A stretch of DNA of 64,000 nucleotides from Dyadobacter flavalbus (lineage in GTDB: Bacteria > Bacteroidota > Bacteroidia > Cytophagales > Spirosomataceae): positions 434,001 through 498,000 of the forward strand of contig NZ_VBSN01000049.1 in the NCBI RefSeq assembly GCF_006149045.1, in the 5' to 3' direction. This document shows positions 1,498 to 28,329 of the stretch, in pieces. The translations under genes and the position numbers were made by a program. The notes under the pieces were generated by a model. The model was not told the DNA's origin. It saw nothing but the letters and a program-made list of their open reading frames with translations, and ran no database searches. How positions within the stretch are numbered: the stretch's first letter is position 1; every line of letters starts with the position of its first letter.

Positions 1498-2611
1498 TTC
1501 TCAAAGTGTTAATATGTATAAAATTCAAAATGACAACTTCCAGGCAATTGCACTATTTCAGATTATTAAATAGTTTCCTTGCTCTTCTAATCTTTTTCGA
1601 AGAGCATTGATTTTCTTATTGTATAATATCTTCCATTTTTCATCTTATATAATTTTTTCTGATTGTAGAAACAGTTGAATCCTAAATTTCCTAAGCGTAT
1701 GAAGAAAGGATATTTATTCATGTCAACTTAGTTTCAAATCAAAGGTTTCCTGATCATACTGGAATACTGATATTAGATATTTCAATGTCAATAAAGGATG
1801 AAACATCCAATTGTTGGTTCAAAAACCTCATCATTGCAATAGAATAGTTCTTATAACGGTACCTGTTATACGTAAAACTCTTTTATTATATGATGCTACC
1901 TATTTCTACGCCCGTCTGTCCTATTTTCAATTTTACAAAGTATACCTGTAACTGTACATAAGCCATTATATTGATCTTGCACCGTTTGTTTTTCGCTGTG
2001 GGAACCATCGTTTGTGTAATGTATTTTTTACTGGTTTTCATCGCATCCAGTTGCCTGAATGCAATATGTTATGTGTCACTGTTTTTCTTTTTTAAATTTC
2101 TTTTATGAATACCCTTAGAAGTAAAAAATGTTTCTGCTCACATATTGTTAATTATCAGATCAGAAATATAGATCCGATAAAGATCTTTACGGTTTTTCTC
2201 TTCTGCTGCGCATCTGAGCATGAATCCTACTTCACCCGCGCTACAACTATCCTTAGCCAACAAGTCATGAAAAATGCAGCACAAGTGCATCTGCTGAATT
2301 GTAAAAATGTTTTGTTATTATATTTAAATCAGCTAATAAGCTTAGAAATAATAAATCAATTTGAATGCAGACCTATTAAGTTAATTGATATTATTGGTAG
2401 TAATTTATTATTTTACAGGTAATGAATGCTCCTGTTTACTCCGTTAAATTACTTATGTTACAATCTATTTACGTCTTCAAATATACTTAATGTATTACCT
2501 GACCCCTCTTTTCAAATTATAATTTTGAAAATATTTAGTTAACGGTAACAAAAAAACAACAAGTATTCGCTGTAACAATCAATATATAAACTTGTATGTG
2601 TATGCTTTTTA
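1498..2611. other. AT-rich intergenic stretch, about 1.1 kb
   Basis: No convincing gene was found. The base composition is clearly more AT-rich than the flanking genes. A 105-codon frame at 2105-2422 has cysteine-rich, low-complexity content without a family resemblance and is treated as spurious. An 8-bp stem (TGCTCTTC/GAAGAGCA, 1580-1606, 11-nt loop) lies about 85 bp upstream of the MBOAT start; its role is unknown. Confidence 0.6.
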
Positions 2612-2937
2612 GACGGATAGCAGCAACCCTTGTTCGCATTCCAGCTGCTGCAATACTTGTATGACTTTACTGACAGGAATCAAATAATCCGCATGTGCTG
2701 CGAATGCTTCTCTGCCAGTAAATCCATGACAACTAATGTTCGCACACGTCTGCCGGAGGGAAGAGCATCACCGACAAAGTCCATACCGTGCGGCGGACCT
2801 TTTTCGCTGACCACTTTTGCGGATCTGTGATCAAGAGCCAATTCGGCCAGCTCAGATGCTCTCATGATGATGTATTTCCGGCGCCAGTTGTACAGTGTAG
2901 CTTTGTAGACCAGGTTATCCCTGCATGAATAGCTCAC
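2612..2937 (-). pseudogene. IS3-family transposase relic (orfA/orfB fragments)
   Basis: A decayed transposase. The reading frame starts with the end of an OrfA helix-turn-helix (ATLYNWRRKY), continues into the usual LALDHR-type OrfA tail, then jumps to the catalytic core of OrfB (MDFVGDALPSGRRVRTLVVMD), so several hundred bases between them have been deleted. After VVMDLLA the homology continues in another frame (EAFAAHADYLIPVSKVIQVL), showing a further 1-nt frameshift. One DDE-domain aspartate (MDF) remains; the rest of the catalytic triad is gone. No terminal inverted repeats were recognised. It cannot move on its own. Confidence 0.8.
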
Positions 2938-3043
2938 AAAAATGCCTGGCCGGGCGCAGCCAGTATTAATGACCCAGATTCAAGAAGATTCTGTTGACAG
3001 CATTCTTAAATACTGTATGTTTTAGGGTGTGGGAAGGTACCTG

Positions 3044-3514
3044 CTATCTGGCATCCATTTCCGGTGGCCAGATTTCGGTTATGTTCAGCTGGTAAATGAT
3101 GTCAACCAGGCTTTCTACCTGATGGTAAGACAGTCCGTTTTGACTTTTACAAGCTTTTCTGACCCGTGCTGAATCCTGAACTGAAAGCTGTATGGCCTTT
3201 ACACATACGACTTCCTTCCTGATGGAAGCATCGGAGATAAAGAGCATAAAGGTCAGCTTTTCGGCTTTAAGCCAGCAAGTAGCATTCAAATGAGTTAAAA
3301 GCACATGATTCAGGTGTATCAGTGTATTGCAGCCGCCGTTTTCCGGGCTGAATAACAGTACCGGAACTGAGCAGAAAATCTTCAGCCTGTAAGTCCAGTT
3401 TTGCGATGCTGCCAGCTCCGGAGTGGTTTTCCTTAGTTTGACATGCACATCTAAGTGGGTCCGGGTAGGCTGAAAATAACTTTCTTCTTTGTCAAAGTTT
3501 GCAAAATCCCTCAT
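3044..3514 (-). CDS. Hypothetical protein, 156 residues
   Basis: An open frame of 156 codons with ATG start. I do not recognise a family. No clear signal peptide or transmembrane helix is seen; the middle (around residues 50-100) is rich in Leu, His, Asn and Cys. It lies between an IS3 relic and a poorly coding stretch, so it could be a degraded or chance frame. It is listed because it is the longest frame here and its first 40 residues look ordinary. Low confidence. Confidence 0.33.
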   Translation of the reverse strand: MRDFANFDKEESYFQPTRTHLDVHVKLRKTTPELAASQNWTYRLKIFCSVPVLLFSPENGGCNTLIHLNHVLLTHLNATCWLKAEKLTFMLFISDASIRKEVVCVKAIQLSVQDSARVRKACKSQNGLSYHQVESLVDIIYQLNITEIWPPEMDAR

Positions 3515-3983
3515 GGCAGTTCAATCTTTTTTATGGCAGCATTCCGGTTAAAGGGCAGCCTGTCTGGACATGCCCCTTAAATCACGTTGAGTAAATCCTT
3601 ATCAATTTACCGCTGAACCGGCAACTCACAAAGGGCCCTGCTGTTTATTGACGTAAAGTCCTGCTTTACAGGGGTAGCGGCAATATACCTTGGGGTGAAG
3701 AAAGCAGCGGCTTCACGGCGGTAATCATCTCAAATGCCTTCCGAGTGCTGTCTAAGGATGTGACTATGGCATTTACGGTTGATCTGGCAAGTTCGGAAAA
3801 TAACCCGGGGCGTGCCGCCGGCCAGTCTGCACAAAAACAAAAAGCCGAGATGCCACCGCTCCTAAAAGATTAATCCCGGATAAATTGTTGTAAAATCCGG
3901 ATTTGCACTTTTTTAAGCAGTACTACATGAGATGTAAAAAATTTATTACTATTTTAGCTAAATAATCCACTTTATAATATAGA
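3515..3983. other. Intergenic stretch with a startless coding-like frame
   Basis: No complete gene was found. A plus-strand frame at 3652-3873 (between a TGA and a TAA) reads like protein in its second half but has no good upstream start; the first ATG is at the codon reading MAFTVDL. It may be the tail of a lost gene. It is followed by a weak stem CCGGAT/ATCCGG (3876-3900) and a T-rich tract, which could be the terminator of that lost gene. Confidence 0.4.
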
Positions 3984-4208
3984 ATGATTGATATAAAACT
4001 TTACAGCAAATCAAGTAATCTCAGGAATGTATACGAGTTTACGGCTTATTGTTACAAGAACCTTCAGGCGGGAGCGTACTTTCGGCATAACGGCCATGAG
4101 TATCTTATTACATCCGATCCGGTGTACCAGGAAGATAAAGAAACTGAACCCAGTATCAGTGAAGCCAACTTTATGGCTGTCCAGATAGGTTCTTACCTGA
4201 TGGCATAA
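3984..4208 (+). CDS. Small hypothetical protein, 74 residues
   Basis: A 74-residue soluble acidic protein with ATG start and ordinary codon use. I do not recognise a family. There is no signal peptide or membrane segment. The C-terminal half is rich in Glu/Asp and Ser (QEDKETEPSISEANF), and the start is preceded by an AT-rich stretch that could hold a promoter. It stands alone on this strand with a small frame 73 bp downstream. It is probably a genuine small gene because the composition differs from the surrounding AT-rich DNA. Confidence 0.5.
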   Translation: MIDIKLYSKSSNLRNVYEFTAYCYKNLQAGAYFRHNGHEYLITSDPVYQEDKETEPSISEANFMAVQIGSYLMA

Positions 4209-4281
4209 GGGTTTTAATCTTTCACGTTACTGGAGGTCCTATCTTCACTTTTTTCTAATCTATTCACCAAGGCGCAGCAAA

Positions 4282-4527
4282 GTGTCTGATTTTACTTTAT
4301 GCCACGTTCAGGCCTTATTCTTTGGTGAAGATGAGGATGATCAGCTGTTCATCACTCCGGCATTAAGAGAGATTGGAATTGTAAACGAAAAGACAGATTG
4401 CCAAAATGAATTCTGTCAATCTCAGAAACTCCATATTCCTGAGCATTTCGTTATTGACAGCATTCTGAAAAACAACTGTATAAAGATATCAAGATGCATC
4501 AATCCGGTTTCTTTTCCTGCTCCGTAA
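4282..4527 (+). CDS. Possible small protein, 81 residues, GTG start
   Basis: An 81-codon frame that must start with GTG. The acidic stretch FGEDEDDQLF near residues 14-23 and later cysteines (EFCQSQK, NNCIKISRC) give it protein-like composition, but no family is recognised. Its last 29 bases overlap the 3' end of the opposite-strand frame at 4499-4738, so the two would be convergent genes. It may equally be a chance frame. Confidence 0.28.
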   Translation: MSDFTLCHVQALFFGEDEDDQLFITPALREIGIVNEKTDCQNEFCQSQKLHIPEHFVIDSILKNNCIKISRCINPVSFPAP

Positions 4528-4738
4528 GATCAATCCACTGATTAAAAAATTGCTGTGACAAGTGACTCAATTCGCATGCATGCCGCAAAAGCATTTTGGA
4601 TTTAAAATCTTCACTTTCGTTATTGAGCTCACTTGCCAAGACTTCCGCTTTGTGCTTTTCAAGCAGGGCATCGCTTCTTAGCTGATGTTTTTCAGCAAGT
4701 AGCTTTTCTTCTTCGTTAGGGTTGTCAGCTGGTTGCAT
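4499..4738 (-). CDS. Small charged helical protein, 79 residues
   Basis: A 79-residue, highly charged protein rich in Glu, Lys and Leu and lacking glycine, which predicts an almost entirely helical, possibly coiled-coil protein (LLAEKHQLRSDALLEKHKAE around residues 13-32). No signal peptide or family was recognised. It is convergent with the frame at 4282-4527. Composition supports a real gene more than chance, but function is unknown. Confidence 0.42.
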   Translation of the reverse strand: MQPADNPNEEEKLLAEKHQLRSDALLEKHKAEVLASELNNESEDFKSKMLLRHACELSHLSQQFFNQWIDLTEQEKKPD

Positions 4739-5166: not shown

Positions 5167-7401
5167 TTACACAATTAACAATGGGTTTGCAATACGGGAT
5201 TGCAGCGACGAACTATGCTGTACTTCCATGTTTGCATATTGAATGACTACTTTCTCGGGCATAGGCGACCTGTAAACACCAAACTTCCAGTAAGGACCGG
5301 TTGCATCCGGATAGCCCAGCCCGATGTTGGCAATGTTGACGAGTTCCTTTCCGTCCTTCCACCATTGCAGCTGCCCTTTTGTCGGAGAGAAGCGGATACG
5401 CATGACATTTTTATGCCAGATTCCGCGCGTAAACTGCGTGGTCCCTCTCAATACGGACTTCGGGCTTTTTGTATGTGGGTTCTCCGTTGTCGCACAGGTA
5501 TAGACGTTTGCAGTGTCAAGGCCATCCAGCCTCAGCCCGAGTACAGGCGGCGAGCTGATGTCGCCCGGGTCTTCACTGGCATGGAACTGACCAATGTAGC
5601 AGAATTCGGATGGTTCCAGGGTCAGCGGCGCGCCGGGTTCAATTTTGATGGCAAACGAAAGCCAGACATCTCTGTCGTAAGGCATCTGGTAATTTTTCAG
5701 ATAAAACTCTGAACGCTCCCTGTACTGATTGGTATAATCGCCTGTCCAGACTTCTTTTGCATTTACTTCTACGCGGTACACCGGTGAAGTCTTGTTGATT
5801 GCTTTCTGAAGAGACCATTGCTTGTTAGGCGTTTGGGTATTATAGAGTTTGTCGAACATGGTCAGCATGGTTCCGCTGGCTCCTACCGAAACAAACTCTT
5901 CCGGAAACAGCGTCAGTGCTGTTTCTTCATGAGCATTGCTTATTTCATTTGTATCATAAAAACTGATCAGCTGGATCTCGTTTTCAGAAGGTACCACTTC
6001 ATAGTCAGCAACTGTCTGTTTTGCCCAGTCACCGCCATTTTTCCTTTGTATGAAAACATCGAATGTACCCTCGGTACTTGGTCTGGCGAGTTTGACGATG
6101 TCCGCCTTGCGTGTAGCAGCACCTGCGCCGGTCCGGATATAACTGGTGGCCACCTCACTTTTTTCGAGTTGTACGCCCCATACCAGAATTCCGCTTGATC
6201 CATTTCCGGCATAAGATTGCTGGCCGTTGCTTATTTCAGGCCCGATAACTGTCGAAGTTGCCGACTTTGTGGCAATAAAAGTAGCAGAACATCTCAGCCA
6301 TCCGTTCCCGGCCCGTTCAATGGCTGAATTAATGAAGACGCTGCTTTTGTTACCGATGATTCCTGTGGAAAGATCAAAGTGGATCGTCAGGCCATTCACG
6401 TTGAAATAAGCCCATTTGCGTTCAGCTGCTTTAAAGAATGCACTTAAGGTATAGGTGTTCCCCAGGTCTGTTGCAATCGTTGGGTTCGGGACAATGTAAT
6501 GAGAGGAAGTATTGCTGCTTTCCCTGATCTTGAATCCATTGGTTATGCCATCCGGTGATTTGATACCCGTCGCGACAATCGTTGCATACTGCTTGCGCCA
6601 TCCGGCTTCATCCAGCTGCTGCGAAAAAGGGACCAGGTTCGTTGCTTCCGGTTCTATCAAAGCGCCCATTAACTCAGGAGCAGATCCTGCAAGACTGTAA
6701 TTATATCTTAAACCTATATAAGCCGCATTCAGCGTAGGCGTATAAGCGGTCATTGTACTTCCGGGCTCCATTTGAGCTCCCCATGCATAAATGTATTTGT
6801 CCGGGCTTCCCAGATAACTGGTATTGTTACTGTCATTAAGTATATAAATATGAAAACCGGATGCAATGCCAAGATCGGGCATTGCCGTAATCTGAAGTCT
6901 CCACCAGCCGTTTCCACTGTCTACTGCCTTACAGCTAACCAGGTTAGAGCTTTTGGAAATAAAAGTGCCGGTGGCAAGATTGAATTTTATGGTCGGATTG
7001 CCGCCTGTATAAGTAGTGGCATTGGAAAAGCTGAACTGAACCCGGCTGCGTGTGCCGGCTTTCAGGTAAACGCTGACGGTAACCGGCTGCCCAAGCGGAA
7101 CATTCAGGTTCCGTGAAATCCTGTGTTCTCCCTTTGTGGAAGTTTCCGATATCCTGTTTGCCGTAGACGTTCCGTCGGCTGCCATCACTTCACTCGTTAC
7201 GGAAGGTGTAACCCGTACATTAATCCAGGGATTATTGGCGCAGTTCTGACTTTGTGCCAGCCAGTTTATGCCGGATTGGGCAAAGTGCAAATAGCCATCA
7301 GCGCCGTAATACGATGCTTCACTTTCTCTTGAAAATAAAATACTGCTATTGAATGCGGATGGCTCTTGCCTGAAATCGAAGGTTTGTGCAGGTGTTGGCA
7401 T
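5167..7401 (-). CDS. Phage-spike-like modules fused to heparin-lyase-I-like domain (copy 1)
   Basis: A 744-residue protein that probably binds and cleaves an acidic polysaccharide. Residues about 20-60 and 245-262 (LMGALIEPEATNLVPFSQ) resemble the phage tail/head-spike fibre layout. Two tandem modules follow the same scheme: GNGWWRL plus YAWGAQMEPGSTMTAYTPT (to about 223) and GNGWLRC plus VWGVQLEKSEVATSYIRT (to about 424). From about residue 515 the chain looks like the heparin lyase I/alginate lyase jelly roll (PF14099 type), with RERSEFY, DVWLSFAIKIEPG and QFHASED. There is no signal peptide at the N-terminus, which is unusual for such an enzyme. A full-length paralogue of identical length lies upstream at 7937-10171. 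Family assignment is by motif recognition only; substrate is unknown. Confidence 0.75.
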   Translation of the reverse strand: MPTPAQTFDFRQEPSAFNSSILFSRESEASYYGADGYLHFAQSGINWLAQSQNCANNPWINVRVTPSVTSEVMAADGTSTANRISETSTKGEHRISRNLNVPLGQPVTVSVYLKAGTRSRVQFSFSNATTYTGGNPTIKFNLATGTFISKSSNLVSCKAVDSGNGWWRLQITAMPDLGIASGFHIYILNDSNNTSYLGSPDKYIYAWGAQMEPGSTMTAYTPTLNAAYIGLRYNYSLAGSAPELMGALIEPEATNLVPFSQQLDEAGWRKQYATIVATGIKSPDGITNGFKIRESSNTSSHYIVPNPTIATDLGNTYTLSAFFKAAERKWAYFNVNGLTIHFDLSTGIIGNKSSVFINSAIERAGNGWLRCSATFIATKSATSTVIGPEISNGQQSYAGNGSSGILVWGVQLEKSEVATSYIRTGAGAATRKADIVKLARPSTEGTFDVFIQRKNGGDWAKQTVADYEVVPSENEIQLISFYDTNEISNAHEETALTLFPEEFVSVGASGTMLTMFDKLYNTQTPNKQWSLQKAINKTSPVYRVEVNAKEVWTGDYTNQYRERSEFYLKNYQMPYDRDVWLSFAIKIEPGAPLTLEPSEFCYIGQFHASEDPGDISSPPVLGLRLDGLDTANVYTCATTENPHTKSPKSVLRGTTQFTRGIWHKNVMRIRFSPTKGQLQWWKDGKELVNIANIGLGYPDATGPYWKFGVYRSPMPEKVVIQYANMEVQHSSSLQSRIANPLLIV

Positions 7402-7511
7402 ATTTGGATCATGAATAGGATAATGTGCAGTAACGGGTATTTACCTTGATTACTATAATCATCCGGGTTAAACAGATTACCAAAATTAGGTAAGCACCTG
7501 AACCTGTAATA

Positions 7512-7523
7512 TGACCTTTGTCA
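7512..7523 (-). promoter_or_regulatory. TGAC-N4-GTCA palindrome upstream of copy 1
   Basis: TGACCTTTGTCA lies 111-122 bp upstream of the start at 7401. The same element with similar flanks and spacing occurs upstream of the second copy at 10287-10298. Conservation inside a duplicated leader suggests a regulator binding site; the regulator is unknown. Confidence 0.5.
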
Positions 7524-7558
7524 GTTTAGAAATTGACATTTGAGTAATAAAACGGATA

Positions 7559-7915
7559 CTACGCCAAGGGCTGCTGCATAAAGCTGCCTTGTGAACCGGG
7601 CAGCAAGTGCAGTCCGGATGCATCCTGATCGATGTGAACGGTCAAAGGCGTAAAACCGTCTTCGGCCATATACCTGATTTCACAGGAATGTGACGGCGTT
7701 TTAAGCTTTCCCTTTTTATTGACAAGGTTTACAACCTGTTTGATACCATCCACATGAAATTCGTAGCTGCCGTTCTTGCAGGGCATTTCAATAGTCAATG
7801 ATCTTGTATAGGAACCGGCAAGCTGTTGCTGGTTTTCAGGCATTTTGAATCCGGTCACGATTGTACCCAATCCCAATGAAACCGCCTGGATAAAGTTTCT
7901 GCGTTTGATGGCCAT
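7559..7915 (-). CDS. Small exported protein with Tat-like signal, 118 residues
   Basis: A 118-residue protein whose N-terminus, MAIKRRNFIQAVSLGLGTIV, has a twin arginine followed by a hydrophobic stretch, as in twin-arginine (Tat) signals. The mature part is beta-rich with two cysteines (about residues 46 and 79) and no recognised family. It starts 21 bp after the stop of copy 2 (7937-10171) on the same strand, so the two are probably cotranscribed, with copy 1 following 157 bp later behind its own leader. Its position between the two lyase-like genes suggests a helper or co-substrate role, but this is inference. Confidence 0.72.
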   Translation of the reverse strand: MAIKRRNFIQAVSLGLGTIVTGFKMPENQQQLAGSYTRSLTIEMPCKNGSYEFHVDGIKQVVNLVNKKGKLKTPSHSCEIRYMAEDGFTPLTVHIDQDASGLHLLPGSQGSFMQQPLA

Positions 7916-7936
7916 TTTATTGCTGATATAAGATGG

Positions 7937-10171
7937 TTATACAATCAGTAAAGGATCTGTTATTCTGGATTCGAGCGAAGTATTGTATTGTACTTCCATG
8001 TTTGCGTATTCTACCGCAACCGTCTGCGGCATGGGGGAACGATAGATGCCGAACTTCCAGTAAGGGCCGACGGCATCCGGATAGCCGATTCCGATTCCGG
8101 AAATATTCACCAGTTCCACGCCGTCTTTCCACCATTGAAACTGCCCGTCGGTCGGAGAAAAGCGGATTCGCATGACGTTTTTGTGCCATATTCCGCGGGT
8201 AAACTGGCCGCTTGCCCTCAGAAAAGCTTTCGGGCTTATTGTATGCGGCGTAATGGTAGTAGAACAAGTGTAGGCTTTGATCGTATCCAGACCTTCCAGC
8301 CGGAAGCCCAGAACGGGCGGTGAACTGATGTCGCCTTCGTCTTCGCTGGCATGGAACTGGCCGAGGTAACAGAAATCGGAAGGATCCAGGTTCAGCGCTT
8401 CACCCGGCTCGATCTTGATGGCAAACGAAAGCCACACATCCTGATCATAAGGCATCTGCGCGTTTTTCATGTAAAATTCGGAACGCTCGCGGTACTTGTT
8501 GGTATAATCGCCCGACCAGACTTCACCGGCATTTACCTGTGCACGGTAAAGCGGAGATGATTTGTTGATTGCTTTTTGCAGAGACCATTGCTTGTTTGGC
8601 GTCTGTATCATAAACGTTTTGTCAAACATGCTGAGCATGGTGCCCGAACTGCCAACAGAAACGAAGTTTTCAGGGAACAATTCCACGGCTATATCTTCAT
8701 GCTCCGTACTGATCACATCGGAATCATAGAAATTGATGATCTGGATTTCGTTTTCAGATTGTTCAATCTGGTAATTGGCACTGGTTTGTTTGATCCAGTT
8801 TCCGCCATTGATTCTTTGTGTAAAAATATCCGATGCAGCGCTGGCGGATGGCCTGTTCAAAATGACGATATCTGCATTCCGCGTCGCTGCGGTGGCGTTG
8901 GTGCGGATATAGCTGGTCATGGCCGCCGCTTTTTCCAGCTGAATACCCCAAATCAGCACGCCGCTTGTGCCGTCGCCTGCATAGGATTGCTTGCCATTGC
9001 TGATTTCACAACCGATTACCGTGGATGTATTGGATGAAGATGCAATGAAAGTGGCCGCACAGCGGTACCAGCCGTTCCCAGCATTTTCAATGGCAGCATC
9101 GATGAAAATACTACTCTTGTTTCCAAGAATTCCGTTTAATACATCGTAATGAATTGTGAGCCCACTTACATTGAAATAGACCCATGTGCGTTCGGCCGCT
9201 TTGAAAAATGCACTGATCGTATAAACATTTCCTGCTTCGGTAGCAATGACAGGATTGGGTACAATATAGTGTGCTGAACTGGCGGTGCTTTCCTTGATCT
9301 TATAACCAAATGTCACGCCGTCCGGAGATTTTACGGTAGCAAGCGGTGTGCTGGCTGCCTGCTTGCGCCATGGAGTTCCTTCCAGCTTTTGAGAATACGG
9401 CACCAGATTGGTGCTTTCCGGTTCAATCAATGCACCAGCCAGTACAGGCGCGGCATCCGAAAGCCTGTAATTATAACGCAAACCCAGGTAAGCATCTTCA
9501 GCAGTCGGCGTATAGGCAGTCATATCCATACCTGGTTCCACCTGAGCGCCCCACGCGTACATATAATGATCTACACTCCCTTCATAGCTGATACTACCGT
9601 TCTCATTGAGCATGTAAATATGAAAACCGGTTGTGGAACCCAGATCCGGAATGGCAGTCAGCTGAACTCTCCACCAGCCGTTACCGCTGCTTACCGCCTG
9701 ATAACGGATCACGTTGGAACTTGCAGCCATCACTGTTCCGGCGGCAAGATCAAATTGTATAGTAGGATTGCCTCCTGTAAAAGAAGCTGATTCGCTGAAA
9801 CTGATCTGTACTTTGCTGCGTGTTCCTTCTTTGAGGTACAGGCTGATAGTAACCGGCTGACCTTGCGGAACCTGAATGCTTCGGGAAAGCCTGTGTTCGC
9901 CGGGCGTATATTCTTCAGAAACCTTGCAGGTTGTGTCCGAACCATCCGGAGCCGGAATATTGCTGACGGTTGACACAAAGGCCAACACCTGAACCCACGG
10001 ACTAACGGCCAGGTTCTGGCTCTGCGATAACCAGTTTCTTCCCGGTTTGGCAAAGTGCAGGTATCCGTCCGAGCCGTAGTAAGAGGCTTCACTTTCTCTT
10101 GAAAAAGAAAGGTTGTTGTTAAGCGTGGAAGTCTCTGCTCTGAAATCAAAGGCTTGTACAGGTGCTAGCAT
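7937..10171 (-). CDS. Phage-spike-like modules fused to heparin-lyase-I-like domain (copy 2)
   Basis: A 744-residue paralogue of the protein at 5167-7401, matching along its whole length and ending in the same PLLIV. It has the same layout: an N-terminal FDFRAE...FSRESEASYYG start, a first module ending YAWGAQVEPGMDMTAYTPT, a second ending IWGIQLEKAAAMTSYIRT, and a C-terminal lyase-like region with RERSEFY, DVWLSFAIKIEPG, QFHASED and QFTRGIWHKNVMRIRFSPT. No signal peptide is visible. It is the first gene of a probable short operon with the Tat-type gene. Conserved length and strong similarity indicate a tandem duplication with both copies under selection; divergence is spread throughout, greatest in the first module. 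Confidence 0.75.
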   Translation of the reverse strand: MLAPVQAFDFRAETSTLNNNLSFSRESEASYYGSDGYLHFAKPGRNWLSQSQNLAVSPWVQVLAFVSTVSNIPAPDGSDTTCKVSEEYTPGEHRLSRSIQVPQGQPVTISLYLKEGTRSKVQISFSESASFTGGNPTIQFDLAAGTVMAASSNVIRYQAVSSGNGWWRVQLTAIPDLGSTTGFHIYMLNENGSISYEGSVDHYMYAWGAQVEPGMDMTAYTPTAEDAYLGLRYNYRLSDAAPVLAGALIEPESTNLVPYSQKLEGTPWRKQAASTPLATVKSPDGVTFGYKIKESTASSAHYIVPNPVIATEAGNVYTISAFFKAAERTWVYFNVSGLTIHYDVLNGILGNKSSIFIDAAIENAGNGWYRCAATFIASSSNTSTVIGCEISNGKQSYAGDGTSGVLIWGIQLEKAAAMTSYIRTNATAATRNADIVILNRPSASAASDIFTQRINGGNWIKQTSANYQIEQSENEIQIINFYDSDVISTEHEDIAVELFPENFVSVGSSGTMLSMFDKTFMIQTPNKQWSLQKAINKSSPLYRAQVNAGEVWSGDYTNKYRERSEFYMKNAQMPYDQDVWLSFAIKIEPGEALNLDPSDFCYLGQFHASEDEGDISSPPVLGFRLEGLDTIKAYTCSTTITPHTISPKAFLRASGQFTRGIWHKNVMRIRFSPTDGQFQWWKDGVELVNISGIGIGYPDAVGPYWKFGIYRSPMPQTVAVEYANMEVQYNTSLESRITDPLLIV

Positions 10172-10711: not shown

Positions 10712-11881
10712 TCAAAAAGATTTGGCACGTACTTCGTGGCTTCGGACTGGTGACTTTTTCTTTTTATTCCACCAAATGTAAAAACCGGTGACGGGTAACG
10801 TGGAGCATGCCAGAGCGGCAAGGAAAGAAAGGACTTTACCAAACAAACCCATGTACGCGCCCGTATGTAAATCGAAATTGAGCTGATAAACCTTGTCACC
10901 GTTATTAAGGCTTTGAAAGGAGTTGCTGGAAAGTATTTTTCCCGAGTACCGGTCATAAACGATCAGCACGCGGTCGAAGCGGTTCCAGTCTTTTTTATAT
11001 ACCAGTGTGTTGATTGCAGACGTGGCTTTGACAGGTAATAATACGAGGTATGCATACGCATCCGGGTAGCGGGTGACGGTTGTCGCGAATGCCTTGTCCA
11101 ACCCTGAAACAGCCTGTGAATGCAGTGTATCTGAAACCAGAAGAGCAGGCGCTTCTATATGTTTGCCACCGTTTGCAACAAAACGCACGGTATCCTGCAC
11201 CCAGTCAAATGCCCATACAAGGCCGGTCAGGGAGGTTAGTAACAGGATAAAAAATGCATACAGTCCAAGGATCTGATGCAGGTCATAGTTTAGCCTTTTC
11301 CATTTTGCACCCCATTTAATCGTGAAATTCTTCCTAATGCTTTTGGCTGACCATTTCCTGGGAAACCAGAGGAAAAAGCCGGAGAGCAATACGACAACAA
11401 AGCTGAGCACGGAATACCCGACAACATAATGCCCGACTTTTTCTCCGAATAGCATTCGCATGTGCAATGCAAGCACAAGCTGAAAAAACTCGTTTTCCGA
11501 ATCTTCCACATAAATTACCTTCCCGGAATACGGATTGATGTATACCCGGTAATAATACTCGAAATAGTCCCAGTGGGTCAATCCATCGGGGTTATTCTTT
11601 TGCGACCTGAAAGTCACGGACCGGTCCGGAGCATTGCCCATCTCGATTCTGGTGATGATCTTGTCCTTTCCGAGTGTATGTTGGGCAATGCTCAGCAGTT
11701 GGGTCAAAGGAAGTTTTTCCTTGTTTTCCGGGTTTACAAAAAGGCGCTCACGGTAAACGATGGGTTTAAGCTCGTCGACAAAAACATAGAGGCAGCCGCT
11801 GACCGCAATCAAAAACACAAAAAGCCCGGACACAAGTCCGAGCCAAAGGTGTAAAAATCCGATCCCTTTTTTGATTTTCAT
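10712..11881 (-). CDS. PepSY-associated transmembrane protein (iron-uptake linked)
   Basis: A 389-residue inner-membrane protein of the PepSY_TM family, which in Bacteroidota and Proteobacteria accompanies siderophore receptors and is thought to act in periplasmic iron or ferrisiderophore handling, in some cases as a reductase. Four hydrophobic helices are visible: residues about 9-31 (LHLWLGLVSGLFVFLIAVSG), 145-170, 200-222 and 345-365. Conserved His residues occur in LHLWLG, LHMRMLFG, LHQILGLY and LHTGAYMG, a typical arrangement for haem or metal coordination. The start lies 5 bp after the stop of the TonB receptor at 11887-14238, so the two form an operon. Confidence 0.88.
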   Translation of the reverse strand: MKIKKGIGFLHLWLGLVSGLFVFLIAVSGCLYVFVDELKPIVYRERLFVNPENKEKLPLTQLLSIAQHTLGKDKIITRIEMGNAPDRSVTFRSQKNNPDGLTHWDYFEYYYRVYINPYSGKVIYVEDSENEFFQLVLALHMRMLFGEKVGHYVVGYSVLSFVVVLLSGFFLWFPRKWSAKSIRKNFTIKWGAKWKRLNYDLHQILGLYAFFILLLTSLTGLVWAFDWVQDTVRFVANGGKHIEAPALLVSDTLHSQAVSGLDKAFATTVTRYPDAYAYLVLLPVKATSAINTLVYKKDWNRFDRVLIVYDRYSGKILSSNSFQSLNNGDKVYQLNFDLHTGAYMGLFGKVLSFLAALACSTLPVTGFYIWWNKKKKSPVRSHEVRAKSF

Positions 11882-11886
11882 AAAAG

Positions 11887-14238
11887 CTAAAAACGATACC
11901 CAACGGTTAAATTAAATCTGCGCCCGTTTCCTCTCCGGTAATCGATGGCTGTTCCGTAAAACTGTGCAATAGCCGGGTAATAAACTGTGTTAAGCAAATT
12001 TTCAATACCCAGATCAGCTTTCAGGCTTTGCGTAATTTTGTATCCCAAAGACAAATTAAAGGTGTTATAAGATTCGATTGGCCCTTCCCCGATTGGATAA
12101 ACACCTTTTTCGTTGGGTACAAACCGGTCCCTTTTACCTACGTACAACCAGTTCAGGTCTGCGTTAAACCGGGCCTTGTTATACCTGGCGTAAGTGGCGA
12201 TTTTCGCGGGCGTGATGCGGTTCGAATTCAGGTATTTATCGGTTGGGCCATTGAAATTGCCGTCGCCGTCTTTATCCCCTTTGCCTTCCACAAAAGCATA
12301 GTTGCCCCCTAAAACAAAGTTGTCAGTTAATTGATAGTCAACCTGGAATTCGTAACCCCAAACCCGCTCCGGCAATCTTTCGGCAACGTATTTACCATCC
12401 ACCAGAAGTAAATTGGAACCCAGTTTCGATGTACTGTAATAATAGGCAGCCGACACATTCAATGGTCCCAATGCACTGCTGAAACCAACTTCATAATTGT
12501 TTACAATAATCGGTTCGGTTTGCAGACCTGCCACCGTGTTTTCGTTTGCAGCCCTTAATATTCTGCCCAGATCAAAAATAGAAAATGACTGGGAATAGCT
12601 GAAAAACGGATTGAACCGCTTGAACTTTGAATACCTAAGTCCTGCATTGAATACGAACGCATTGTAATCCAGCTTTCCGCCCGTTACGTCAATGCTTCCT
12701 GCACCGTCGGGACCAGTAGCCAAAGTGGCATAATCGGCAATATCCATCTTGATATTTTCCGCACGCAAACCCGTTTTCAGGTTCAGGTAATCAAACCATT
12801 GTGTCGTAAGCTGTGCATAAGGCGCAAGGTTGTTCATATTGATGCGCGGCACCCAGGAACGGCCGTCAACCAGATTTTGTTCCGTCTTATCGTTCAGTAT
12901 ATCCACTCCGTAAGTTACGTCTCCCGACAGTTTCGGCGATATGGTAAAAGGAGTATTCAGGTTGAGCCTGAAACCTTTCTTGGTTGAAATAATAGCCGAT
13001 TGACCGCTGCCAAAAAATGATTCTGAATTGGAATAAACCGTCCAGAAATCCTGCAAATACACATTGGCAGCCAGAGAAGTCCGTCCAAAAATGTTTTTGT
13101 TCGTATACTGGATATTGGCATTGTGATTGTAGCGCGTACCCTCGTCGATTCCTTTCCGGGTTCCCCACACACCTATTGCGGGAGACTGTCTGTAAATACC
13201 GGCCTTGGCAATGTAAGCCGAATGCTGATTGGAGCTGTAATAGTTATACATCGCCTCGATGCGCTGAGAACCGCTGATATTATAACCTGCCTTTGCAAAT
13301 GCATTGTATATTTTGGTTTCTCCCAGTCCATAATCAGGAGATATCACCAATCCTTCCGGGTCCCGGTAAACGCCTGTTTTTTCGTACATTCCGCTTACCA
13401 CGTAATCAAATTTAGCTATCCGTCCGTACAGTTGCTGTGAAGCCCGGAAACCCAGCGTACTGTCTCCCCTGGTATTGCCTGTGAGACTCAATTGACTGTA
13501 CCCATTGATTTTCTGGTCTGTTTTTGGTGTTTTCGTAATGTAGTTAATCAATCCGCCGTCGGCACCATTTCCGTAGATTGCCGTCGCGCCTTTAATCACT
13601 TCCACCCGCTCGATCACCGAGGGATCAATCGTGCGGATATCCCGTCCTCCGGCTCTTAGCGGTGTTGATTGCGGTATTCCATCAATCAGGACCAGCAGGT
13701 TACGGCCGCGCAATGTTTGTCCCGAGTTCCCGGTTTGATTGGTAGATGCTCCCAAACCGGGAACCGAAAACGCCAGAATGTTAGCGATGTTGGGGCTTAT
13801 GGTAGAGAGTGCGCCTATTTCCTTTGCGTTCACAACGGTCACGGACGACGGCGTTTCAGCCAGCGACTCTACCCTGCGTCCTGCGGAAACAATGACTTCG
13901 TCGAGCTGGGAAGAACTTTCTTTTAATTCAAAATCCAGGCTTTGTTCCGTATCAGCGTCAAGCATAATTTCTTTTTCCTGAATCGTATATCCGATAAAAG
14001 AAGCTCTGATCGAAACGTTTCCTTTGGGTAAATTATCAAGCCGGTAACTTCCGTCACGGTTTGCAGTAGTACCTATATTAGTCCCTTTCACGATGATGGA
14101 AGCGAACGGGACAGGCTGCCTGTTGTTATCCATCACGATACCCCGGATATCCCCCGAAGCAGCTGACTGGGCGCAGGCAAGGTTGAAAGAACAAACGGAA
14201 ACGGCAAAGAATAGTACTGATTGTAATTTTATTTTCAT
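11887..14238 (-). CDS. TonB-dependent siderophore receptor
   Basis: An outer-membrane receptor of about 783 residues that imports a ferric siderophore or similar chelate using TonB energy. From the ATG at 14238 it has a signal peptide (MKIKLQSVLFFAVSVCSFNL, cleavage near ACAQS), a carboxypeptidase-like regulatory domain (DIRGIVMDNNRQPVPFASII), a TonB box region (LDEVIVSAGRR), a plug domain (GQTLRGRNLLVLIDG, IERVEVIKGATAIYGNGADGG) and a beta-barrel ending NLTVGYRF with the C-terminal Phe expected for outer-membrane proteins. The frame extends to a TTG at 14262, but the ATG gives the proper signal peptide. It is followed at once by the PepSY gene, and iron regulation is likely. Confidence 0.92.
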   Translation of the reverse strand: MKIKLQSVLFFAVSVCSFNLACAQSAASGDIRGIVMDNNRQPVPFASIIVKGTNIGTTANRDGSYRLDNLPKGNVSIRASFIGYTIQEKEIMLDADTEQSLDFELKESSSQLDEVIVSAGRRVESLAETPSSVTVVNAKEIGALSTISPNIANILAFSVPGLGASTNQTGNSGQTLRGRNLLVLIDGIPQSTPLRAGGRDIRTIDPSVIERVEVIKGATAIYGNGADGGLINYITKTPKTDQKINGYSQLSLTGNTRGDSTLGFRASQQLYGRIAKFDYVVSGMYEKTGVYRDPEGLVISPDYGLGETKIYNAFAKAGYNISGSQRIEAMYNYYSSNQHSAYIAKAGIYRQSPAIGVWGTRKGIDEGTRYNHNANIQYTNKNIFGRTSLAANVYLQDFWTVYSNSESFFGSGQSAIISTKKGFRLNLNTPFTISPKLSGDVTYGVDILNDKTEQNLVDGRSWVPRINMNNLAPYAQLTTQWFDYLNLKTGLRAENIKMDIADYATLATGPDGAGSIDVTGGKLDYNAFVFNAGLRYSKFKRFNPFFSYSQSFSIFDLGRILRAANENTVAGLQTEPIIVNNYEVGFSSALGPLNVSAAYYYSTSKLGSNLLLVDGKYVAERLPERVWGYEFQVDYQLTDNFVLGGNYAFVEGKGDKDGDGNFNGPTDKYLNSNRITPAKIATYARYNKARFNADLNWLYVGKRDRFVPNEKGVYPIGEGPIESYNTFNLSLGYKITQSLKADLGIENLLNTVYYPAIAQFYGTAIDYRRGNGRRFNLTVGYRF

Positions 14239-26862: not shown

Positions 26863-28329
26863 TCAGAATTTGAAAACAGCGCGGGTATTGATAAAAAGAC
26901 CATCTTTGGAACCGGGAATGATATCATCAATAAAACCGCCTGTTTTGAAATACTGAATTCCTGTATTCAATGAAATGAACCTGTTCAATCCGTACATAAG
27001 ACTGGCCAGACAGGCCGTACCGATGTATCTTTTTTTTGAACCGGACCCCGCCAGATTGAACGTACCGCTGGGCCTGTAAACGCCATCGCTGAGCGAGTAG
27101 CGCCAGTTACAAACCACATCCAGCTGAAGGTTCAGCCTGGTGGACAGTGCCATGGTTCCATAAGGATGAATATCCATGAGGTTAACCGGTCCGACCTGCG
27201 GGCTGAACCCGAAATAACCTCCTTTGGGATAAAGCGGATTAAAGGTCTGCAGATTTCCGTCGCCTGCCTTTTTATCACCGGAAATGTAATCGTGGCGAAG
27301 GTTGATGCTGGGCTTGAACCTTACGTTCTCAAACAAGTAACCTATGTCCAGCGAACCTGTCCAGGCTTTGATATGCCCTTCACCGAATTTACCAAACTGA
27401 TAAGCTGCTTCCAGATTATAGATAAACCCACCGCCGTATTTCCAAAACCGGCCACCAAGCGTATGGCGCAGCTCCTTTTCATTTCCCTCTTCAAAAATGG
27501 AATGATCTCTTCTGATACCCAGGTAATACAGGTCCAGATTGCCTGCTTTGGGGACGATTGTTTTGGAATATGCACCCCACAGGTTTGCCTGTTTTACGGT
27601 TATGTTGTCAAATACACCGGTTCGTATTATATCAGCCATCATGATAAACCCGTCCAGAAACAGCCGTTCAGAAGCATACATTACTTTGGCTCCGGTAAAA
27701 TATAACCGTGCATTGGGACCTTCACGAACCGAAATCAGACGACCAGATCCATAATCCATTTCCTGTCTCCCGGCCCGGCCTGTCAACGTCCTTTTCTGAT
27801 CATGCCCAACTCTGAACTCCAGAAACAGATTCTGGATATTAAGCTGATCTTCGTCAATCGGCCTCGGACCGTTTTTTCTTCCGCCCTGCAAGGCACTTCT
27901 CAATTGACCGAATATCCTGAACCGTTCACCAAGATGAAGATCCCCATGCAGATCGTAACGCTGAAGGAGAAAGTTATTGCTTCCGATTTTCAGTCTTCCC
28001 CAGTCTTCATTATCAAAATTCACAACTTCCAGCCGGGCTTCTCCTCCGAAGGATGCATACGCATTTTTATCGGATGCGAGCGGAACGTATTTAATCCGGT
28101 TGTAAACGGTCCGTGCTGAATCCTGCCAGGATTTATAATTTTCATCATAACGCATAAGCTTATACGTCTGCGCCTGCAATCCCTTCCTTACGCAACAGCA
28201 GCAGAGCATCAGCAATACAACCCGGGACAACCCGGACAAAGAACGGCGATGATTCAAGGGACAGCTTACTCTCCGGCAGACCGGGCTGTACGGTAAAATA
28301 AGGTTAATGTTTAAGCATGTTGTGGGCAT
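26863..28329 (-). CDS. Alginate-export-type outer-membrane porin
   Basis: An outer-membrane beta-barrel of the alginate_exp (AlgE-like, PF13372) family. Recognisable parts are EARLEVVNFDNEDWG, LQRYDLHGDLHLGERFRIFG, QLRSALQGGRKNGPRPIDED, LTGRAGRQEMDYGSGRLISV and the C-terminal TRAVFKF with terminal Phe. The family includes both exporters and importers of small or sugar-like molecules, so alginate need not be the substrate. The start is uncertain: the frame opens at 28329, overlapping the YcaC gene by 26 bp, and the hydrophobic signal segment LSRVVLLMLCCCC begins only at about residue 34. Confidence 0.86.
   Translation of the reverse strand: MPTTCLNINLILPYSPVCRRVSCPLNHRRSLSGLSRVVLLMLCCCCVRKGLQAQTYKLMRYDENYKSWQDSARTVYNRIKYVPLASDKNAYASFGGEARLEVVNFDNEDWGRLKIGSNNFLLQRYDLHGDLHLGERFRIFGQLRSALQGGRKNGPRPIDEDQLNIQNLFLEFRVGHDQKRTLTGRAGRQEMDYGSGRLISVREGPNARLYFTGAKVMYASERLFLDGFIMMADIIRTGVFDNITVKQANLWGAYSKTIVPKAGNLDLYYLGIRRDHSIFEEGNEKELRHTLGGRFWKYGGGFIYNLEAAYQFGKFGEGHIKAWTGSLDIGYLFENVRFKPSINLRHDYISGDKKAGDGNLQTFNPLYPKGGYFGFSPQVGPVNLMDIHPYGTMALSTRLNLQLDVVCNWRYSLSDGVYRPSGTFNLAGSGSKKRYIGTACLASLMYGLNRFISLNTGIQYFKTGGFIDDIIPGSKDGLFINTRAVFKF

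Follow-up and report, generated by a model that had tools for sequence, protein, structure and literature searches.

The 64,000-nucleotide stretch of the Dyadobacter flavalbus genome analysed here (the window; positions 434,001 to 498,000 of contig NZ_VBSN01000049.1, window position being contig position minus 434000) encodes two paralogous enzymes, spike-lyases 1 and 2, each of which joins two phage spike-fibre modules to a C-terminal polysaccharide lyase, and neither of which has a signal peptide. Their reading as lyases with phage modules is well supported, and it is probable that such modules were put together here into active polysaccharide lyases of the uronate type. A signal-less enzyme accompanied by small neighbours with export signals suggests partner-mediated exit, and the occurrence of a twin-arginine translocation (Tat) motif together with a type IX secretion system (T9SS) sorting domain in the partner family suggests partner-assisted export. 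Our best explanation of the whole, which could equally well turn out right or wrong, is a phage-module lyase with partner-borne Tat export and handover to the T9SS for passage to the surface. The enzyme would fold in the cytoplasm, free of any signal, and the folded enzyme would bind a small protein that is encoded alongside it and bears a twin-arginine signal; the pair would cross the inner membrane via Tat, with the enzyme as hitchhiker; the complex would be handed to the T9SS translocon by a type A sorting domain, carried either by this partner or by a second companion; and the lyase would act at the cell surface on the exopolysaccharide of its own cell or of a neighbour. Activity, enzyme-partner binding, both transport steps, surface location and substrate are what we infer; the genes and their relatives are described below.

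Spike-lyase 2 lies at 7937..10171 and spike-lyase 1 at 5167..7401, both on the minus strand, as are all their features given here. Both are 744 aa long, and they are identical at 501 of 744 positions (67%) in a gap-free alignment over the full length. The two paralogues had been described in an earlier note, made from this DNA alone, as lacking a recognisable signal; the open reading frames (ORFs) are confirmed, and the upstream frames yield no signal. NF048003, the NCBIfam domain of gene transfer agent (GTA) and phage head spike fibres, matches two stretches in each enzyme, at 9497..10039 (contig 443497-444039) and 8873..9430 in spike-lyase 2 and at 6721..7266 and 6103..6660 in spike-lyase 1, with E values of 4e-86 and 5e-81 and scores of 288.1 and 271.5 bits against a curated cut-off of 36. 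A PHROG tail family is matched as well (E 5e-59 and 3.5e-56), and the C-terminal part matches PF14099 (Polysacc_lyase) at 8027..8515 in spike-lyase 2 and 5257..5775 in spike-lyase 1 (E 9.5e-18 and 1.4e-17; 65.3 and 64.7 bits, gathering score 29.9). These family matches are far above chance, and together with the predicted fold and conserved residues they bear out the phage-spike-like modules and heparin-lyase-like jelly roll that the note had read from motifs.

In the AlphaFold2 model of the enzyme (mean pLDDT 82.7), the lyase part is a heparin-lyase-I/PL20-like jelly roll, predicted at about residues 502-732. Its closest structural relatives are heparin lyase I (3ina; Z 21.7 over 217 residues, 2.9 A, 19% identity) and glucuronan lyase (2zzj; Z 19.8, 15% identity), followed by GH131 proteins and then PL7 alginate lyases. 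Six residues, R563, E565, Q605, H607, K706 and Y710, which form the patterns R-x-E, Q-x-H and K-x-G-x-Y, are invariant in all 28 aligned enzymes. A profile search against the PDB pairs Y710, in a segment of 20 bits, with position 357 of heparin lyase I, where Tyr357 is presumably catalytic, and H607 with position 151, in a segment of only 0.3 bits that is not significant alone; an H151A mutant of heparin lyase I exists as a PDB entry. H607 and Y710 are the likely catalytic His and Tyr. The lyase domain alone gave no match to the PDB by phmmer, in contrast to the profile search, and besides PL13 heparin lyase I the domain matches PL20 2zzj and PL7 enzymes. Given the heparin-lyase-I-like fold and the residue alignment, the substrate is likely to be an acidic, uronate-containing polysaccharide. 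The ratio of nonsynonymous to synonymous substitution rates (dN/dS) is 0.05-0.14 in nine pairs of enzyme orthologues from D. flavalbus and D. sediminis, and the enzyme copies are kept under purifying selection.

The spike part points to phages and GTAs. Spike-lyase 2 matches by phmmer the head spike fibre Rcc01080 of RcGTA (6tb9, E 4e-28) and two phage fibres, its predicted spike fold is similar to the fibres of Pa193 (9b45, Z 23.1) and E217 (8env, Z 20.2), and the enzyme model has 351 matches (E up to 1e-3) in a viral structure library. In RcGTA, the head spike fibre binds capsular polysaccharide (PMC10218006), and the two spike-fibre modules probably hold acidic exopolysaccharide. In a lyase-domain tree of 40 rows (which omits the nine D. 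sediminis enzymes, an interrupted enzyme of genome G012 and the near-duplicates L063 and L085), 19 spike-lyase domains cluster with four phage-context lyases and with two lyases that bear a general secretory (Sec) signal and a similar C-terminal tail; 14 other PF14099 lyases of the genus stand apart, and row G045 is alone on a long branch. With supports of 94/79 and 85/74 at the split, the grouping with phage-borne lyases is only moderate. Two of these phage-borne lyases, L060 (same protein in L122) and L061 (same protein in L126), are 41% and 34% identical to the lyase part and have a similar C-terminal tail in common with the spike-lyases (SLWSRVENPLPIA, LKGRVASPLPIN). Both adjoin terminase- and portal-like ORFs (read by eye) and occur also on contigs classed as viral in IMG/VR. 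The phage genes around L122, L126, L127 and L132-L134 were recognised from ORF reading, and Pfam assigned no family to two further such phage-region ORFs besides the lyases. Spike and lyase modules are thus each found separately in phage-like regions of Dyadobacter; both building blocks are present there, and a phage-type origin of the spike-lyases is supported by these comparisons. The domesticated phage-type depolymerase proposed in the earlier note gains from the moderately supported tree and from the separate modules, and stays short of proof. Fibre-like proteins in the phage-like regions (L122:7697-9361 and 11715-13937; L126:7662-9698) have what look by eye like Sec signal peptides, which is odd for virion proteins.

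A hidden signal on the enzymes was sought in all three frames up to 300 nt upstream of 28 copies, and none was gained by the 24 from genomes other than G012, the window pair among them; at L032 there is a 50-codon in-frame upstream stretch with no clear signal. Nor do the three enzymes scanned for a T9SS sorting domain (TIGR04183, PF18962), the window pair and L048:9455-11782, show a match. The earlier note had weighed a hidden export signal typical of ordinary secreted lyases; the window enzymes have none, but their relatives in G012 carry a Tat-type motif. Directly after spike-lyase 2, with a start codon 21 bp past its stop, lies a short partner gene of 118 aa (7559..7915, minus strand), whose product begins MAIKRRNFIQ, a Tat-type motif by eye, and continues into a small beta domain. 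The gene had been singled out as Tat-type and as lying between the paralogues, and it proves to be one of a family in which the full-length proteins are equipped with a T9SS sorting domain.

This partner family (A2) has 14 aligned members: in nine, of full length at 196-213 aa, a signal is followed by a small domain and a T9SS type A C-terminal sorting domain (CTD), and five, including the window's, are short and lack the CTD. TIGR04183 matches nine of the 14, and the CTD exceeds its cut-off (23 bits) in all nine full-length partners tested, six of the window family and three of the G012 type. The Tat-type RR-x-F motif is present in 12 of the 14 partners and in seven of the nine full-length members, the other two, closely similar, being read as Sec. 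In the full-length partner that was modelled (L058), the N-domain is confidently predicted, with strands within 41-107, and the CTD resembles those of mirolase, PorU and NucA (Z 10.7, 9.7 and 9.6) among many Ig-like folds of similar Z; CTD matches fill the structure search. The N-domain occurs in four of 59 genomes (D. flavalbus, G000; D. sediminis, G006; D. bucti, G026; and G004), exactly those with signal-less enzymes, the remaining matches covering the CTD, and in none of the other 394 genomes of a phylum sample of 395 in which only the best candidates were scored. Between D. flavalbus and D. sediminis, dN/dS is 0.019 and 0.029 for two partners with Tat motif and CTD and 0.07 for the Sec-type partner with CTD. 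The Sec-type partner lies in a block of about 700 bp, 97-99% identical and with sharp borders, at three unrelated D. flavalbus loci (L031:14998-15708, L123:9155-9865 and L124:9096-9791), and the gene is also present threefold in D. sediminis, a pattern that suggests either concerted evolution or a mobile cassette of small size.

Partner and enzyme genes are coupled. An intact partner lies directly downstream of 11 of the 24 signal-less enzymes, at gaps of 11-125 bp; six of these partners have Tat motif and CTD, five the Tat motif only. At the C21 locus both addresses are present, on two proteins: downstream of the second enzyme come first a Tat-only partner, then a Sec-type partner with CTD. 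Enzyme and partner distances are correlated (Mantel r 0.83, reached in 0 of 20,000 permutations, for eight pairs of which one is 2.8 kb apart). The arrangement differs in G012, where the enzymes themselves carry an RR-x-F-L Tat-type motif (all four intact ones and the interrupted fifth; the one enzyme scanned scores 14.1 bits with TIGR01409, cut-off 16.7), and a Sec-type protein with CTD, whose N-part is unrelated to the window-family partners, lies downstream of three of the four intact enzymes. Complete sets consist of a Tat address and a T9SS address, with the CTD on the partner; the window set is incomplete, its partner lacking the CTD. TatC and SprA are present in all five enzyme genomes. 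Among the 101 TIGR04183 matches of D. flavalbus, five are partners, which leaves 96 whose N-terminal regions we inspected: a single Tat motif rule, our own and widened after first use, is passed by 12 of the 14 partners versus three of these 96 T9SS-sorted proteins, and of the three only L149 is plausible by eye (L174 has its motif 190 residues into the protein, and L175 looks like a Sec protein). We regard Tat plus T9SS hitchhiking as the best reading of this gene arrangement, with the balance for and against it about even.

Several observations weigh against that reading. Thirteen of the 24 signal-less enzymes lack an intact direct partner (one partner is broken, 12 enzymes have none), and spike-lyase 1, with no partner directly downstream, is one of them. 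Five of the 11 direct partners have no CTD, and in the window's own partner the search for a T9SS sorting domain found no match; its D. sediminis counterpart is broken by stops, and two short partner pairs evolve faster than the full-length ones (dN/dS 0.11 and 0.21). TIGR01409 reports only two of the 14 partners, the one shown scoring 15.0 bits against a cut-off of 16.7, and leaves the window partner unreported even at an E limit of 10 (HMMER filters on), while PF18962 is above its own cut-off in only six of nine partners. Within the comparison set of 96 proteins, the N-terminus is unreadable in at least six. The N-part of the G012 partner gives no alignment with the N-domain of the window family, so any swap of addresses between the two arrangements would be one of function and not of the same protein. 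Moreover, the co-occurrence of enzyme and partner and the Mantel result would also follow from joint duplication without binding.

It could also be that the partner is an independent surface protein and the enzyme, without dedicated export, is freed by lysis or in vesicles. Phage lyases are normally released through lysis, and the absence of a signal from all 24 non-G012 enzymes fits release of this kind, as do the 13 without an intact direct partner. The tight gene coupling and joint distribution of enzyme and partner argue against it, as do the Tat-type motifs on the G012 enzymes, which suggest that export is selected there, and we consider this reading rather unlikely. Alternatively, the enzyme might be exported by some other, unknown route and meet the partner only afterwards, in the periplasm or at the surface, where the partner would serve as inhibitor, chaperone or anchor. 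Its small, confidently predicted N-domain would suit such a role, and short partners without a CTD would indeed remain periplasmic. The enzymes show no other export signal, however, and a partner acting after export needs no Tat signal, which is rare among other T9SS-sorted proteins; this role is improbable on balance.

A third possibility is raised by the genome content rather than by the partner, namely that the enzymes are loaded into, or are fibres of, an extracellular contractile injection system (eCIS), for which no signal peptide would be needed. Contractile-injection genes, which the earlier note had thought worth looking for in this genome, are there, as are the T9SS protein SprA and TatC: a cluster with eCIS core, CIS tube, Pvc16 and sheath genes (e.g. 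G000:C28:585000-610000) adjoins one of the nine D. flavalbus copies, and the counterpart of that copy in D. sediminis likewise adjoins the sheath gene. Nine of 37 Dyadobacter genomes, the same for both markers, have Pvc16 and a contractile sheath homologue; all five enzyme genomes are among them, versus four of the 32 others (naive p 2.9e-4, species being treated as independent), and this presence of an eCIS in every enzyme genome counts against export by a partner. The carriers lie in four separate places of the rpoB tree. Against cargo, eight of the nine D. flavalbus copies, the window's included, are elsewhere, no copy of G004, G012 or G026 is near a sheath gene, all five G012 copies carry the Tat-type motif, and no extension common to all copies precedes the FDFR start. 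The coincidence of eCIS and enzyme keeps eCIS cargo as a rival, if an improbable one; a cargo protein had also been among the readings of the earlier note. Beside the eCIS cluster, two genes (L036:4912-6735 and 6931-8337) encode similar N-termini, YLVHASDAPQH and YLIHASDAVQH; one has three PKD stretches and the other no Pfam match, and both are candidate eCIS-related proteins.

The window pair are two of nine spike-lyases in the 6.5-Mb genome of D. flavalbus (18 NF048003 matches); D. sediminis has nine as well, G004 and D. bucti (G026) have three each, and G012 has four intact and one interrupted. These five are the only carriers of the chimera among 37 Dyadobacter genomes searched, 32 being without it, and in the rpoB tree, which covers 30 of the 37, they fall in four separate places. 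In G012, sprA and rpoB are both split in the assembly, and the interruption of the fifth enzyme there may therefore be a sequencing indel. Other NF048003 proteins score above the cut-off in four chimera-free genomes (G009, G013, G030 and G034), and those of the three inspected (G009, G013 and G034) sit among phage-like ORFs. A sample of 390 genomes of the order, with only the top candidates per genome scored, gave no full chimera outside Dyadobacter: 11 genomes have a match, six of them non-Dyadobacter genomes that match the spike part only, and five further Dyadobacter in the sample have none. A scan of genome contigs found nine loci, all in Dyadobacter, and tblastn matched 82 phage records, none of which covers as much as 80% of the query; in each of the 40 listed the match is confined to the spike part. 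In the phylum sample the lyase profile found D. flavalbus and, with weaker lyases, two other genomes. Elsewhere in the family, a different genus has a long tail-like open frame (L234, genome G149) in which, by eye, several short repeats precede three spike-type modules.

Around the window pair Pfam identifies a PepSY-TM protein, a TonB receptor and, 3.7 kb off, an MBOAT acyltransferase; no virion or GTA genes were recognised among the neighbours scanned, which did not include the small ORFs at 2105-4738. Farther along, at 26863-28329, the window has a homologue of the alginate export porin (PF13372), with an amidohydrolase gene close by on its strand. The C21 copies sit with a heparinase II/III, a UDP-glucose/GDP-mannose dehydrogenase, a Sec-type PF14099 lyase, a DUF5723 protein and a pyruvyl transferase, and one G004 copy adjoins a Wzi-type protein, neighbours that point to exopolysaccharide. 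Tentatively, and with more doubt than we attach to the export route alone, we propose that one small protein with both Tat and T9SS addresses escorts a folded, signal-less, phage-derived depolymerase across two membranes, so that a diversified set of phage-type receptor-binding and lyase proteins is displayed on the cell's surface, to trim the cell's own exopolysaccharide or to mask it from phages.

If partner-borne export is right, there would be a Tat-to-T9SS path and a two-chain T9SS substrate. A Tat signal and a T9SS sorting domain on one natural protein would show that already-folded proteins, perhaps complexes, enter the T9SS, and such a partner would offer a means to send signal-less enzymes to the Bacteroidota surface. 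Two articles describe T9SS substrates as each bearing its own Sec signal and sorting domain: all T9SS effectors are said to possess a Sec-dependent signal (PMC12618676), and the system moves folded proteins whose export uses Sec (PMC9251779). As far as the accessible text of the open-licence PMC literature goes, we found no precedent for Tat joined with the T9SS or for CTD-less proteins carried by it. In the spike-lyases, moreover, receptor-binding and depolymerase modules of phage type have multiplied on a bacterial chromosome, where purifying selection maintains them, and the unexplained link of these enzymes to contractile injection systems is testable.

The spike-lyases resemble several known systems without coinciding with any of them. 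The RcGTA fibre Rcc01080 has a related spike module, whereas the spike-lyases have two modules, a fused lyase and nine copies, and no GTA genes were recognised beside the window pair. TspA, the RcGTA tailspike, which is reported to degrade biofilm (PMC13420450), is a phage-type protein acting on bacterial exopolysaccharide, as the spike-lyases would be, but is part of the GTA particle. The lyases of the phage-like regions (L060 and L061) are of PF14099 type like the spike-lyases, but show no NF048003 module in the portion seen. With heparin lyase I (PL13) and glucuronan lyase (PL20) the spike-lyases have the jelly-roll fold in common; unlike these enzymes, they lack a signal peptide and carry spike modules in front. 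The proposed export has a parallel in Tat hitchhikers such as the MelC1/MelC2 pair of Streptomyces. Signal-less proteins exported with a Tat-signal partner are described for Ni-Fe hydrogenases (PMC10924467), and passenger and partner would be combined in the same way in the spike-lyase pair; unlike in those complexes, the full-length partner also has an outer-membrane (T9SS) address, and no cofactor is evident. Type A cargo of the T9SS, finally, shares its CTD with the full-length partners, most of which are of Tat type and not Sec, and Tat plus T9SS hitchhiking would vary two known mechanisms in a new way.

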